Shown: positions 23,346 to 29,477 of the stretch, one piece after another
How the letters are laid out: each line of letters opens with the position of its first letter
Position numbering within the stretch: the first letter of the stretch is position 1
Position numbers and translations under genes: made by a program
Notes under the pieces: model-generated
What the model saw: the letters and a program-made list of their open reading frames with translations, nothing else
The model's database searches: none
Told to the model about the DNA's origin: nothing
Source: an uncultured Prevotella sp.
GTDB lineage: Bacteria > Bacteroidota > Bacteroidia > Bacteroidales > Bacteroidaceae
NCBI GenBank assembly: GCA_905236815.1
Contig: CAJOPE010000112.1
Coordinates: forward strand, 1 to 39,620
Length of the DNA: 39,620 nt
Reading direction: 5' to 3'

Positions 23346-25010
23346 TTATCTCTTGTTGATGAGAATGAATCCTCCCTTTTTTGATGGACTAGGAGAAGCT
23401 ACAATGCCCTTATAATTTTTTCCAACCTTCTGTCCTGCTAAGTTATATAGGGCATTGCCTGAACCTTGATTTTTCTCAATATTATGAATTCCATTCGTAT
23501 TCTTTCCAATATCGGAACTTGTACCAATTGTAAGCTCAAGATCATTGGCAATATCCTGCTTTTCCTCTCCATAGAAATTGATGTCTCCAAGTAAGCTAGG
23601 CATCAAATTTGGATAGATGATTGAAATCCAATATGCTTCGTCAAGAATATCGTTAGTTCTTTTTAGATTCTCATTACCTTCGGCATGGGTGAGGAATGCT
23701 TTAGATAGAGGAGAGTAGAGAGAAGTGAGACCTCGATTTTCCAGTTGTTTGAGAACTGCTTTGGCAAGGCGATTGCGTGCCATAGTGAGAAAGTTGGATG
23801 TGCTTTTTACTTCATTGATGAGTCCCGTGTGGATATTCATTACAGTGTTATTACTGTTGATAGTTATCCATCTATAGTGGCTGGGATAAGTGATAAGCGA
23901 ACCAGTAGTTACATCATATAATTCCTTTCCTGTCTGCTCGCCTGGATCTTTAGCTATGTCGGTGGTGTGAAAGTGGCCAGTAAAAACAACCTTGATACCT
24001 GCTTCCATCAATTGTTTTCTGATATTATCTGCATCGCTAACTGCAGAAGTACTGGATAATAGCATCTCATCAGAGAAATGTTCCATTATCGGATGGTGCA
24101 TCATGGCAATCACCTTGTAGCCTTCATGTCGGGCTTCCTTAGCCCGATCGGTCACCCATTGCAAAGTACTGGTTGAAAGTGAACCACTTTTAGAGTCGAT
24201 AGCTAGCAATTTTACGCCCTTTGCTATTTTCACAATATAACTGAGCGAGGAGGCATCCTGCTCTATGTTCCTGGCATAACCATGATCAGCATAGAGAGTC
24301 TTAAATTCTTCTTCGGAGATAGTTGCAGCCTTCTCCTTGTTACTGCCATTGTAATAAACGGCATTAGTGTTGTTAATATCATGGTTGCCAGGAATCACAA
24401 AGCTCTGGATGCCTGCCTCGCGAAGTTTCTTTAGTCCTTTTACTACTACCTCATGACTTAGCCGCTCACCATCTTTTGTGAGGTCGCCTGGAATCAGAAC
24501 AACCTCAGGTTTTCTTTTTAGAATAGAGTCGATAGCAGCCTGATAGAGTTCATAGCTGTAGTCTTCTAGTTTTCTGTCATTTTCAAGATAACTTTGCCAA
24601 GCACTTCCATCCTTCTTTATCAAGTCTGGGCTCATCACATGAATATCCGTCATCAAGAAAATATTCTTGCTGTTATGGTCGAAGTTATAGTTGATTCGAA
24701 AAGAATAAGATTTTGCATTCTCCTGGTTGTTCTTAATGCTCTTTACAGTATAGAGTCCTGGTTCGAGGGCAGATTTCATAGCAAATACTCCATTCTTGTT
24801 TTTCACGTCGAGAGAATCGAGCATAGGCTGGGATGCATTATCCTTATATAAAAGGATGGTTGAGCCAGAAGGAATATTCGAATATTGAATATCCACCAAT
24901 TCCCCAAAATTATAGTTCAACTTCTCTGTAGAGAAAGATTGAGCCGATAATTTTGTGTTGGTTAGAGCTAAAGTTGTAATTGCAAATAAGTAAATCCAAA
25001 ACTGTTTCAT
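23346..25010 (-). CDS. Secreted calcineurin-like metallophosphoesterase with C-terminal YNLAGQKV tail
   Basis: 554 aa; LMTDIHV, LIPGDLTKDGE, VIPGNHDINN, MMHHP, FTGHFHTTD. Confidence 0.92.
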   Translation of the reverse strand: MKQFWIYLFAITTLALTNTKLSAQSFSTEKLNYNFGELVDIQYSNIPSGSTILLYKDNASQPMLDSLDVKNKNGVFAMKSALEPGLYTVKSIKNNQENAKSYSFRINYNFDHNSKNIFLMTDIHVMSPDLIKKDGSAWQSYLENDRKLEDYSYELYQAAIDSILKRKPEVVLIPGDLTKDGERLSHEVVVKGLKKLREAGIQSFVIPGNHDINNTNAVYYNGSNKEKAATISEEEFKTLYADHGYARNIEQDASSLSYIVKIAKGVKLLAIDSKSGSLSTSTLQWVTDRAKEARHEGYKVIAMMHHPIMEHFSDEMLLSSTSAVSDADNIRKQLMEAGIKVVFTGHFHTTDIAKDPGEQTGKELYDVTTGSLITYPSHYRWITINSNNTVMNIHTGLINEVKSTSNFLTMARNRLAKAVLKQLENRGLTSLYSPLSKAFLTHAEGNENLKRTNDILDEAYWISIIYPNLMPSLLGDINFYGEEKQDIANDLELTIGTSSDIGKNTNGIHNIEKNQGSGNALYNLAGQKVGKNYKGIVASPSPSKKGGFILINKR

Positions 25011-25102
25011 GTAAAAATTATTAACCTTCTGTAAAGGTATGTATTTCTCGTAATTGCTATGGGGTATATTTTGTTGAAAAATCTAGAAAAGGGTGGAAAA
25101 AA

Positions 25103-25142
25103 CGTTACGAGGCATATTCCCGAAAGAATATGCCTCGTAACG
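25103..25142 (-). terminator. Strong intrinsic terminator after small peptide 2
   Basis: cgttacgaggcatatt/aatatgcctcgtaacg perfect 16-bp stem followed by T6 on the minus strand. Confidence 0.9.
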
Positions 25143-25162
25143 CTAGATAAGTCGGATGAGAA

Positions 25163-25369
25163 TTAATCATCCCAAAAACTTCCGCCACCATTTTTGTCAG
25201 AATTACCCCATCCTGAGTTATTCTGCTTAGCATCTCCCCATTCACCTTCCTCACCAATGGTGATACCACCAGTGCTTACAGAACCTGTTCTTGAGTCTTC
25301 CAGTAAACAGCTTGCACCTTCAACAGATGTATAGGAAATAATTTCTGGCTTTGAATATATTTTTTTCAT
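25163..25369 (-). CDS. Small WDD-tail peptide, 68 aa
   Basis: MKKIYSKPEIISYTSVEGASCLLEDSRTGSVSTGGITIGEEGEWGDAKQNNSGWGNSDKNGGGSFWDD; 12 nt after the preceding CDS; no signal peptide. Confidence 0.8.
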   Translation of the reverse strand: MKKIYSKPEIISYTSVEGASCLLEDSRTGSVSTGGITIGEEGEWGDAKQNNSGWGNSDKNGGGSFWDD

Positions 25370-25381
25370 ATCTATATTATT

Positions 25382-26476
25382 TTAGTCCTTTATAATATAT
25401 TTCTTTCCGTTATGTATGAACATACCCTTCTTAGGTGCTGCAATTTTCTTTCCGTCCATAGAGTAGAAATTGCCATCTTCTTGAGTGGATACGTTTGTCT
25501 TTGCTGAATTAACCTCAGTAATCTCGTCTTCAATTGAGATGTTTGAGAACAGTAAACCTGTTTTAGCAGAGACTGAATTGTCCCATAAGCGTGCAGGAAC
25601 AACTAAATAGGCGCCATTCTTTTTAATACCTGTACACACATTTACTTTTTTAGTCTTTCCTCCTGCAATATAGACAAAAACGGAATCGTCAGGCTGATTA
25701 GCCTCCCATATATAATCACTTTTTTCCGTTTGTGTTCTCATCAGATTTGCATAATAGAAATCTGGCTCATACTGAGTTTCACGGAAAACAACTTTAGCGC
25801 CTGGTGTGCCAATGATCACCATACCTGTGTTTGAAGGAGCAAATCCGTCAAGGAATGTAGTATATTCAAATCCCAATTTACTATTAAAAGAGGTAATTGT
25901 ACCTACTTTTACATTTACTCCTGTTTTTACTAAATGTAATGGTTTGCTGTTGGAATAAGTAGAAATACCAGAACTAGCTATTGTTACTGTGTCGTATGTA
26001 TTGATGTACTTTGCTGGAATTTCCAAGTAGGCTCTATTCTCTCTCATATTCGCATATTGATTGAGAATACGCCATTTTCCATTTGCTAGATATAGCCATT
26101 TGTAACCAGAAGGTACGTCTCTTTCATAAATTTGGCCTCGTTCGACGTTTGGCTTTAATAAATTTGCATATGCATAATCAGGCTCTTTATCTATATCTTC
26201 AAACACTAATGTAGTATTTGCTGATCCTTGGATAAAAATACCTGTGTATGAAGGTATTGAATCACCATGAAATTTAGTCAATTCATATCTGTCATTCATA
26301 CCATCGTAACCTTTTATGGCGCTGAGTACAACATCTTTTGATGCAGATTTTAATCGCACAGGGGTGTCGTACGAAGCAACTCCCACACTTTGTGTCAAAG
26401 TATAAATGTATTCTTTTGCGAAACCAATGCTTGCTGAAAAGAGTGTTATTGCGAAAATCGCTAATTTCTTAAACAT
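25382..26476 (-). CDS. Exported protein of unknown function with C-terminal YSMDGKKI...NGKKYIIKD tail
   Basis: Start MFKKLAIFAITLFSASIGFA at 26476 (signal peptide); two internally similar halves (TGIFIQGSANTTLVFEDIDKEPDYAYANLL / TGMVIIGTPGAKVVFRETQYEPDFYYANLM). Confidence 0.85.
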   Translation of the reverse strand: MFKKLAIFAITLFSASIGFAKEYIYTLTQSVGVASYDTPVRLKSASKDVVLSAIKGYDGMNDRYELTKFHGDSIPSYTGIFIQGSANTTLVFEDIDKEPDYAYANLLKPNVERGQIYERDVPSGYKWLYLANGKWRILNQYANMRENRAYLEIPAKYINTYDTVTIASSGISTYSNSKPLHLVKTGVNVKVGTITSFNSKLGFEYTTFLDGFAPSNTGMVIIGTPGAKVVFRETQYEPDFYYANLMRTQTEKSDYIWEANQPDDSVFVYIAGGKTKKVNVCTGIKKNGAYLVVPARLWDNSVSAKTGLLFSNISIEDEITEVNSAKTNVSTQEDGNFYSMDGKKIAAPKKGMFIHNGKKYIIKD

Positions 26477-26539
26477 AATTGTAAAGTATTTATTGTAAAG
26501 ATACCTAAACAAATGATTTTGTTCATTCTTAGTCAAGTG

Positions 26540-26547
26540 CAAAGTTA
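26540..26547 (-). promoter_or_regulatory. Putative -7 box (TAACTTTG) for 25382-26476
   Basis: Reverse complement ttatTAACTTTGCACttg. Confidence 0.5.
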
Positions 26548-26639
26548 ATAATAAAGAACTATGCTTTCTTTCGTTTTGTAAAATTTTGCTAGTATTATAA
26601 CATTATTTAACTTTGTGTATCTACGTTTTTAATAAAAAA

Positions 26640-26670
26640 GAGGGTTACGACAAATTTAGACGCAACCCTC
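26640..26670 (-). terminator. Intrinsic terminator after small peptide 1
   Basis: gagggttacg...cgcaaccctc 10-bp stem with one wobble, followed by CTTTTTTATT on the minus strand. Confidence 0.85.
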
Positions 26671-26691
26671 TTCTTCTTAATTTATTGACGA

Positions 26692-26859
26692 TTAGTCGTC
26701 CCAAACGTTATAGTTTTTCCAACTTTTGTCGTTTTCCTTGGCTTCACCCAAACTAGCATCTACCTTTTCGTTTTCGATTGCTAGAGATTCTGTAGCCATT
26801 AGATCTTCTTCATCAATTGATGTTGTATTAATTTGGGGGCTATTATATATCTTCTTCAT
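26692..26859 (-). CDS. Small WDD-tail peptide, 55 aa (absent from ORF track, below cutoff)
   Basis: MKKIYNSPQINTTSIDEEDLMATESLAIENEKVDASLGEAKENDKSWKNYNVWDD*; paralogous to 25163-25369; 13 nt after the preceding CDS. Confidence 0.82.
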   Translation of the reverse strand: MKKIYNSPQINTTSIDEEDLMATESLAIENEKVDASLGEAKENDKSWKNYNVWDD

Positions 26860-26872
26860 TTTGCTGATGTTT

Positions 26873-29401
26873 TTATTTTACAACGATTTTTTTACCATTC
26901 ATAATATATATACCTGCTGGAACTGAATTGAGATTGCCTTTGATCTTGATTCCCTGTAAGTTATATAATGTGGTATTTTCATTATTTGCAGTCTTAGTCT
27001 CATCGAGGCTTTCAATGTTTGTAGTTTCATTGTCATCCCAATTGATAATCAGACTCTTTGCGGCACTTGTTGAAAGATAAGGGATGCTAAGATATGCCTT
27101 GTTTGCCTGGATGGTTGAACCATCAACAATTGGATGGAATGCACCCTGATAGAGCACATAATTATTATTAACTCCGTTGTTTGAAGTTAATTTTGCAGCA
27201 TTACATCCTGATGTAGATTTTAACCAAGTTTCGCTGTAGGTTGATTCTGCTCTGTCGTTAGGATTGAAATAATAGGTAACCTCGCCTGCTTCATTGCTTG
27301 TACCTTTTATAATCACACCATTTCCATAGGTTGTACTTGCTGCAAACTTCAGGTCCTTGTTATCTGCATTTAGGGCTTCAACTTTTATTCTGTTTGCTTC
27401 AATTTCGTCAGAAACGATACCATAAACAGTAAAGTTTTTGCTTACAGAGAAAATCTTTGGAGAAGCAAATGTAGCATAACCAGATTCAGGCATAGTTATA
27501 CTTGCTGATACTCTACCGTTATAGTTGTAAGATGTGAAAAGGTTTAATGTTGTATTGCTAATCTCTTTTACGTGGAGATTTGCAAATGAACCATTAACAC
27601 TTTCAGATGTGAATGAAGGGAGGCTGTTGCCTGCAAAAGTAATATCAACATCCCAGTTTGAAGGATAGTTATATGGGTCATAGCCTGCATGATATAATGA
27701 ATTTACACCAAGACTTTTTACTGATGCAGGTATTGTTGCAGATGCTTTTCTTCCTGGATAGCAAACTAGTTTGGTTCCATCAGCAGAATAAACAATTCCA
27801 TCGATTGACTTGTATGCACTGTTATTGGATGCAACGTTGATAGCCTGAAGATTACTGCAACCTAAGAAGAAAGGATTGCTTTTTGTAATATCAATATTCT
27901 TTACTGTTGAAGGTATTGTAACCGTCTTGATGTTTAGGTTACTGCTAAATAAAGGACATGAAATCTTTGTCACAGCGATATTACCAATTTTGCTTGGAAG
28001 TACTAAATCCTCGCCGAAGGAGCTATCTTGTTTTGAATTTATAGTGATAGAAGAATAATCATTAGCTACATTTATACTAAGAGGGTATGGGTGAGCTGCA
28101 TCTTTAGTTGAATTCAACGAACTGCTACCTGTACCTATATAAAATGTCATATTTCCAGTTGTAGTGAAACTTGTAATGGTTAGTTTACCATTTAACCAGG
28201 AATATGTGTTATCTGCATTTATATTACCAAAACGCTTGTAGTTTTCGCCAATATATGTAACTTCAGCGGTTACGCCCTCCCATGCGTTAAGTGAATCAGT
28301 TAACAAAGGAGTAGAGAAACCTCCTAAGTTTATTGTAGATAGTTTAGTACAACCTGCTGCAAGGGAGTTTATTGATTTTAATTGTTTTACGTTAAGTTGG
28401 TTTAAAGGGAGGCTTGTAATATTTGTTCCTTTGAACCAATTTGCAATAGTTGTTGGTGAATAGTTGCCAAAATGGCTGAAATCAACACTAGTGATATCAC
28501 TTGCGTGTTCTGTAATCCAGCCTGGTATTTCATTATCTGTGTTTAGATCATAAGTAAATGAATAATTAGCTCTATCATTGTCTTGATGGAACTCCAAAAT
28601 ATTGTTTACTACTGCTGCATAGACAGGAAGTTGAGCTACAGCCAATGTGAAATAACCATCTCTCCAATTATAAGTGTTGTCGGATAATTTATTGAAAACC
28701 TGTGTATTAAGTGAAGAACTTGCCTTGAGTTTAAATGGTTTTTCAGAAGTTCCTGTTCCACTAAAGAAACCATCAGATTTGGTAATGGAAGTGAAATTGA
28801 AATCACCTACATTTAATTCTTCCAAATCTGAACAATCTGCAAATGCATTTTTGGCAGTTGCATTTTTGTCAGTTTCTATATTAGAATTTTTTAAGAAACT
28901 GACGTTTATTGTTTTGAAGTGAGAACCTCTAAAAATATTGTCGATATTTGTTATTTTACTTCCGTTGATAGATGATAAGTCTATTTGATTAAGTGGGGCA
29001 GTTGAAGAACCACAATTTTCAAACATACCCTCTAATGAAGTTACGTTTTCTGTATTAAGATTTTCTAAGCCTTGTATTTCTTTAAGATTAGTCAAACCTG
29101 AGAAGAAATCTTTGAGAGTAGAAGGTGACCAGCCATTTATTGATTTGTCGAATATAATTGTAGTAATAGCTGTATTTCCTTTCCATTTTGGCTTACCTGA
29201 AGTTGCTTCAGGCATACTGAAAAATTTATCTCCATTCTTGTAGTGTGAGATCAGTTCAGTATTCTGTACAAATGTGATTGTGTCTCCATCTTTGGAGAGT
29301 AATCCGTAAGTCGAGGTTACTGTTTGAGCCGACAACATTGCCGGAAGCCCAATCAGCATCACCATGATGCATAAAAGCTTAGAAAATAAATTCTTTCTCA
29401 T
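26873..29401 (-). CDS. BspA-like leucine-rich-repeat surface/secreted protein with C-terminal YNLQGIKI tail
   Basis: 842 aa; signal peptide; repeated TSLEGMFENC, LEELNVGDF, ISCPLFSSNLNIKTVTIPSTVKNI; tail LYNLQGIKIKGNLNSVPAGIYIMNGKKIVVK. Confidence 0.9.
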   Translation of the reverse strand: MRKNLFSKLLCIMVMLIGLPAMLSAQTVTSTYGLLSKDGDTITFVQNTELISHYKNGDKFFSMPEATSGKPKWKGNTAITTIIFDKSINGWSPSTLKDFFSGLTNLKEIQGLENLNTENVTSLEGMFENCGSSTAPLNQIDLSSINGSKITNIDNIFRGSHFKTINVSFLKNSNIETDKNATAKNAFADCSDLEELNVGDFNFTSITKSDGFFSGTGTSEKPFKLKASSSLNTQVFNKLSDNTYNWRDGYFTLAVAQLPVYAAVVNNILEFHQDNDRANYSFTYDLNTDNEIPGWITEHASDITSVDFSHFGNYSPTTIANWFKGTNITSLPLNQLNVKQLKSINSLAAGCTKLSTINLGGFSTPLLTDSLNAWEGVTAEVTYIGENYKRFGNINADNTYSWLNGKLTITSFTTTGNMTFYIGTGSSSLNSTKDAAHPYPLSINVANDYSSITINSKQDSSFGEDLVLPSKIGNIAVTKISCPLFSSNLNIKTVTIPSTVKNIDITKSNPFFLGCSNLQAINVASNNSAYKSIDGIVYSADGTKLVCYPGRKASATIPASVKSLGVNSLYHAGYDPYNYPSNWDVDITFAGNSLPSFTSESVNGSFANLHVKEISNTTLNLFTSYNYNGRVSASITMPESGYATFASPKIFSVSKNFTVYGIVSDEIEANRIKVEALNADNKDLKFAASTTYGNGVIIKGTSNEAGEVTYYFNPNDRAESTYSETWLKSTSGCNAAKLTSNNGVNNNYVLYQGAFHPIVDGSTIQANKAYLSIPYLSTSAAKSLIINWDDNETTNIESLDETKTANNENTTLYNLQGIKIKGNLNSVPAGIYIMNGKKIVVK

Positions 29402-29469
29402 TGTGCTATGTTTTTAATTTTGTTTATGATTCGATTTTATGATTTTTAATGTGGACATTACATTGCAGG

Positions 29470-29477
29470 CAAAGGTA
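29470..29477 (-). promoter_or_regulatory. Putative -7 box (TACCTTTG) for the LRR gene
   Basis: Reverse complement agacTACCTTTGCC with TTG about 20 nt upstream. Confidence 0.55.

Follow-up and report, generated by a model that had tools for sequence, protein, structure and literature searches.

We examined a 39,620-nt stretch of DNA from an uncultured Prevotella sp. (contig CAJOPE010000112.1, assembly GCA_905236815.1; this whole stretch is called the window, and coordinates refer to it) that carries two consecutive transcription units, each consisting of a gene for a large exported protein followed by a very short open reading frame (ORF). The small ORFs are probably dispersed, cargo-linked precursor peptides of a ribosomally synthesized and post-translationally modified peptide (RiPP) system of Bacteroidota, served by one shared enzyme set and resembling the linear polyphosphorylated peptides (LPPs), whose 2026 description confines them to Bacillota (PMC13381572). 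An earlier note on this DNA had described both units and proposed a modular accessory role for the peptide, as secretion adaptor, regulator, immunity-like factor, or peptide precursor. The ORFs, strands, and gaps are all as it claimed: both units lie on the minus strand, with 13 nt between partner and peptide genes in unit 1 and 12 nt in unit 2 (Table 1).

The two window peptides had also been called paralogous, and this is borne out by a family profile made from the genome's 16 other family members with the window pair excluded: searched against 847 window ORFs, it ranks the two peptides first and second (E-values in Table 1; next ORF E 5.2), and a leader-only profile, again built without the pair, retrieves the same two ORFs. 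Direct pairwise similarity between them is weak (E 3). Constant across the family are the Tyr, the Pro, a Ser ~19-20 residues beyond the Tyr, and, near the C-terminus, a Trp accompanied by acidic residues; Trp is found within the last 12 residues in 83% of the peptides, and the family also conserves W(D/E)D and AK...W motifs at the C-terminus. The WDD ending pointed out before is present in both window peptides and is not invariant elsewhere. Alignment of 71 non-redundant peptides gives the leader consensus KxYxxPx[IV]xV[VI]x[IL]E....LLxxS, in which Tyr, Pro, and one hydrophobic position belonged to the selection pattern and are hence not independent, the remaining leader positions being unselected. 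In 63 out of 69 peptides the Tyr is followed 18-21 residues later by a Ser, against 20 expected. The motif [Y/W]xxPx[hydrophobic] is bound by the discrete RiPP recognition elements (RREs) of lasso and LPP pathways (PMC13381572). From these sequence features we infer that the peptide N-terminus is an RRE leader.

The candidate enzymes form a small module. A PqqD-type RRE is encoded in 109 of 121 genomes of the taxonomic family, and the RRE, kinase, and protease genes are adjacent in most genomes read; among 80 kinase loci, an S26 protease gene is nearby in 73 and an RRE gene in 67. The window's genome has a single PqqD-type RRE, whose gene neighbors those of an HprK-like kinase, a signal-peptidase-like protein, and an rpoD-like sigma factor. 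Single-sequence PDB searches with the RRE and the kinase gave no useful match, and profiles were needed. The only plausible PDB matches of the RRE profile are lasso and LPP RREs (TfuB1, 9e-7; PbaB1, 7e-4; TbiB1, 0.017; LppB, 0.048), and the best fold matches of the predicted RRE model are TbiB1 and TfuB1 with leader. Residues N35, Y63, and D73, invariant in 28 RREs, align with LppB N33, Y60, and D70 (9x8z, 9x90), which contact YxxP and hold the leader Pro region and Tyr (PMC13381572). The kinase has an invariant SGTGKST (Walker A), and its AF2 model (predicted local distance difference test score 94.7) shows a PEPCK/HPr-kinase fold. In the protease, SMxP, HR, and GDGN are conserved, which we take to be the archaeal signal-peptidase pattern; in the PDB its profile gives only weak LexA/signal-peptidase matches. 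As a separate observation, nearly all other genomes carry kinase, protease, and RRE genes in this order on one strand, and the module of the window's genome (L198:7393-9026, G000:C16) departs from this: its RRE gene (L198:7393-7662) converges on the protease and kinase genes and lies ~10 nt behind a dipeptidyl-peptidase gene, either a local inversion or an assembly matter. This adjoining S9 dipeptidyl peptidase (L198:5190-7382) matches the lasso isopeptidase model NF033523 with E 3e-13, well below the cut-off.

Physical linkage in other genomes is the strongest evidence that connects the peptides with this machinery. In an uncultured Prevotellaceae (L373) two tandem precursors (MKKEYMKPTMDVVEIKGTTLLT[TG]S...) directly precede the kinase, protease, RRE, and ABC transporter genes, while L302 has a contiguous series of precursor, kinase, protease, RRE, NTP-transferase, and ABC transporter. 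Similar sets of precursor and enzymes are found at L225, L224, L237, L347, and L339, and outside Bacteroidota at the Fibrobacter loci L368 and L372, where tandem YxxP precursors accompany NTP-transferase, HprK-like kinase, and protease genes; the NTP-transferase and ABC exporter are part of the cluster at L302, L225, L224, and L347. At L224 and L237 the precursor is followed by a lipoprotein gene and then by the RRE cluster, an order that joins the surface-protein arrangement to the enzymes. In a sample of the order, all 5 leader-positive genomes besides the window's possess the kinase, which occurs in 29 out of 197 genomes (p 5e-5), although these count as four independent genomes because two share a genus. 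The phylum sample is too sparse, with the leader in the window's genome and G141 only, both kinase-positive.

The conserved W(D/E)D and AK...W motifs fall outside the roles that we assign to leader and Ser, and one may ask whether the peptides are RiPP precursors with another chemistry, for example at the C-terminal Trp/Asp, with the kinase or protease serving other substrates. This explanation would agree with related loci at which long YxxP precursors occur together with a radical S-adenosylmethionine (SAM) enzyme; but the kinase and protease accompany the RRE at the frequencies given above and no other maturase is constant, and we consider it unlikely. The loci in question (L218, L219, and L220) have RRE, kinase, and protease genes near longer YxxP precursors (~130-150 aa; MKKIYEKPAMQAEAFVANTYCA..) and the radical SAM enzyme, and may be a second branch of RiPPs. 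Exopolysaccharide loci (L221, L228, L231, L234, and L303) contain second copies of the genes for RRE, NTP-transferase, and HprK-like kinase.

The large partners were said to be unrelated apart from their C-terminal tail, and indeed one is a DUF285 protein with similarity to leucine-rich repeat (LRR) proteins and the other belongs to no family, while a tail profile built without them matches both (E 8e-10 and 3e-12). The tail, encoded by ~57 genes of the window's genome, shows in order the motifs Y.L.G.K, GIYI, and NGKK-V-K. Motifs B (Y..xG), D (GxY/I), and E (basic) are likewise those of the short C-terminal domain (CTD) signals of the type IX secretion system (T9SS) in Prevotella intermedia, of which 48 are predicted and five have determined cleavage sites (PMC11969387). 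Judged by these sequence motifs, the shared tail of the two partners is the known short T9SS C-terminal signal; as the window's genome also encodes PorU, the T9SS sortase, we predict that both partners are T9SS cargo (their signal peptides were judged by eye). No account of a peptide gene adjacent to short-CTD cargo was found in the parts of PMC11969387 consulted or in the literature searched.

Homologs of the peptides exist far beyond this locus, in 67 of 121 genomes of the taxonomic family and 19 of 30 genera, and they are not randomly placed relative to exported tail proteins. In the window's genome, 18 of the ~57 CTD genes are followed, after 4-100 nt, by a gene for a YxxP...W(D/E)D peptide (two of 20 motif matches behind CTD genes, L026 and L030 with TTG starts, were discarded as spurious), and a further peptide lies 236 nt behind its CTD gene. 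The first 11 members detected there by sequence alone are all (11/11) behind CTD genes. Among 50 sequence-only matches with readable context in other genomes, 29 are behind a CTD gene and 10-11 directly before an exported protein or lipoprotein (L109 was scored as exported-downstream by a crude hydrophobicity rule, probably wrongly). At an assumed ~2800 genes per genome, these counts exclude random placement behind CTD genes. Both arrangements also occur in other families of the order, and one genome of the genus has an expanded set of at least 13 related peptides situated before lipoproteins. The modular part of the proposed accessory role thus stands, as a small ORF behind unrelated T9SS cargo in many genera, and among the roles listed only the peptide precursor is supported, by the YxxP leader, the conserved Ser, and the co-occurrence and linkage with the RRE/kinase/protease module. 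That the peptides are chance ORFs or decaying gene fragments might be suggested by their very short length and by Pfam and NCBIfam scans in which they matched no family; it is already contradicted by fixed motifs and a placement conserved over many genomes and genera, and can practically be dismissed. Some arrangements are recorded here in their own right: G111 (L128-L142) and G003 (L050, L057, L064) have paralogous peptides MRKKQxKKxYSAPxCMIIQV...W(E)D before lipoproteins ending YWSSS-rich; one CTD gene (L162, G101) has two tandem peptides behind it; and a YxxP peptide of the window's genome (MKKSKYIRPSILVVKIEATSCMTAS..., L014, G000:C8:3559) is not behind a CTD gene and is convergent with another family peptide.

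The close placement behind CTD genes could also mean that the peptide is a T9SS-specific cytosolic accessory (chaperone, pilot, or quality control) acting on the co-encoded cargo, its YxxP leader being incidental. PorU is present in 63 of 67 peptide-positive and 23 of 54 peptide-negative genomes (p 5e-10), a strong association that is confounded by phylogeny. About two thirds of the CTD genes lack a peptide, however, many peptides precede lipoproteins without a CTD, and the same leader occurs in RRE/kinase/protease clusters without T9SS cargo. The first two of these observations also disfavor a secretion adaptor for the tail, and we regard a T9SS accessory as quite improbable. Immediate co-transcription, and the position of the peptide before the surface gene in some genomes, would suit a regulatory small protein or a nascent-chain regulator of the neighboring surface-protein gene; yet the peptide is mostly downstream of its partner, a terminator follows in the window, no DNA-binding or arrest motif was seen in it, and the RRE leader would be left unexplained, all of which makes this reading very improbable. 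Nothing was found in support of the regulator or immunity-factor roles of the earlier note.

Several components are shared with LPPs. The LPP precursor has the same constant YxxPx[V/I]...S N-terminus and variable C-terminus, and LPP pathways likewise use a discrete RRE with an Asn/Tyr/Asp YxxP pocket, an HprK-like kinase, and an archaeal-type signal-peptidase-like protease, so that three of the five core LPP cluster genes are represented; the NTP-transferase and ABC exporter are also present in several Bacteroidota and Fibrobacter genomes. The variant in exopolysaccharide loci parallels the Bacillota LPP clusters in capsule loci. In LPP biosynthesis LppK phosphorylates Ser3, 18 residues after the leader Tyr, and LppS cleaves at -1, just before Ser3 (PMC13381572). 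Unlike LPP precursors, those described here are mostly scattered, up to ~20 per genome, beside T9SS cargo or lipoprotein genes. Several points weigh against an LPP-like pathway. The full LPP consensus YxxPxVLxHQxIxFETxxS is not matched, HQxIxFET being absent from the peptide consensus; the kinase and protease match their families (HprK models; TIGR02228) weakly by sequence; and in the window's genome the precursors are unlinked to the enzyme genes, beside which no ABC exporter or NTP-transferase was seen in the neighborhood read. The co-occurrence of peptide and enzymes is partly shared ancestry, and within the taxonomic family the association of peptide and PqqD is modest (65/67 vs 44/54, p 0.006) because PqqD is nearly universal. 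Since the exact leader consensus is unmet and the precursors are dispersed, we do not file the system as LPP but call it a variant that, by analogy, would work in the same way.

Lasso peptides, including paeninodin, share the RRE fold and YxxP/WxxP leader recognition, and paeninodin clusters contain an HprK-like kinase; the precursors here differ in being unclustered, and neither a macrolactam synthetase nor a B2-type cysteine peptidase was recognized by eye in the module neighborhoods read (no family search was run). GG-leader RiPPs and bacteroidetocins (PMC10352776) are also leader-core peptides of Bacteroidales, with a GG motif, a C39 peptidase transporter, and radical SAM/YcaO enzymes in contrast to the YxxP leader and RRE/kinase/signal-peptidase-like module here. 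A GG-type leader with C39 transporter was considered and dropped, as the YxxP motif and the module fit better; no C39 search was made. In the literature searched, where subscription journals were thinly covered, neither the Bacteroidota system nor the T9SS-linked peptides were found described.

In the proposed LPP-like pathway, the N-terminal ~24 residues would serve as the leader, and sequence and structural models suggest that the discrete PqqD-type RRE binds its Tyr, Pro, and following hydrophobic residue. The RRE would present the peptide to the HprK-like kinase for phosphorylation of the conserved Ser, as LppK does, and the archaeal-type signal-peptidase-like protease, by analogy with LppS, would remove the leader next to this Ser. 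The product would be an acidic peptide of roughly 30-50 residues with a W(D/E)D end. The enzymes, encoded once beside the rpoD-like sigma factor gene and away from the precursors, would serve all of them. Because the peptide is produced with the surface protein of its own transcription unit, it may act at the cell surface or close to it, together with that partner; this is the least certain part of the proposal and deserves low confidence. It is conceivable, if rather doubtful, that the Prevotella clade has a genome-wide peptide-tagging or signaling layer, in which every selected T9SS cargo protein or surface lipoprotein would be produced along with a companion peptide of its own; this peptide would be phosphorylated, trimmed of its leader, and exported, and would either cooperate with the partner or be attached to it.

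If true, the proposal would widen the range of LPP-like RiPPs beyond Bacillota to include Bacteroidota and Fibrobacter, where a single central set of enzymes would handle many scattered precursors. A RiPP pathway would also be tied to T9SS cargo and surface lipoproteins in bacteria that are abundant in the gut, rumen, and mouth. The proposal offers a testable function for a large set of small proteins that lack annotation and for a PqqD/kinase/signal-peptidase-like operon present in most genomes sampled, and the operon partners seen here might provide a way into the biological role of LPPs.

Table 1. Features of the two transcription units and the adjoining gene in the window.
Feature	Position	Strand	Basis or remark
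TAnnTTTG promoter box, unit 1 (TACCTTTGC)	29469..29477	-	Motif scan; ~68 nt upstream of start codon
Unit 1 partner: exported LRR-like protein (DUF285), 842 aa, short T9SS C-terminal signal	26873..29401	-	Family scan and tail profile
Short CTD of unit 1 partner (LYNLQGIKI...AGIYIMNGKKIVVK)	26876..27019	-	Profile A3; motifs B, D, E (PMC11969387)
Peptide 1, putative RiPP precursor, 55 aa; leader MKKIYNSPQI...LMATES, C-terminus NVWDD	26692..26859	-	Leave-out profile, E 9.4e-8
Predicted RRE-binding leader of peptide 1, through conserved Ser (S25)	26785..26859	-	Leader profile without window rows, E 2.2e-5
Intrinsic terminator, unit 1	26634..26676	-	Hairpin -24.4 kcal/mol, z -7.8
TAnnTTTG promoter box, unit 2 (TAACTTTGC)	26539..26547	-	Motif scan
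Unit 2 partner: exported protein, 364 aa, without known domain, short T9SS CTD	25382..26476	-	Family scan and tail profile
Short CTD of unit 2 partner (FYSMDGKKIAAPKKGMFIHNGKKYIIKD)	25388..25513	-	Tail profile
Peptide 2, putative RiPP precursor, 68 aa; MKKIYSKPEI...CLLEDS, C-terminus SFWDD	25163..25369	-	Leave-out profile, E 1.3e-4
Intrinsic terminator, unit 2	25101..25144	-	Hairpin -31.3 kcal/mol, z -8.8
Metallophosphoesterase gene, next after unit 2	23346..25010	-	Third CTD-like tail gene in succession; without peptide behind

The TAnnTTTG boxes reported before are present upstream of both units and are not particular to them, because the sequence is a general promoter element in the window (44 matches of TAnnTTTGY vs 15.3 expected). 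The terminators of both units are strong hairpins, as confirmed by their folding energies (Table 1); a simple terminator scan of the window flagged neither. The tail of the metallophosphoesterase that follows unit 2 ends in KGIVASPSPSKKGGFILINKR, versus the usual IxNGKK end.

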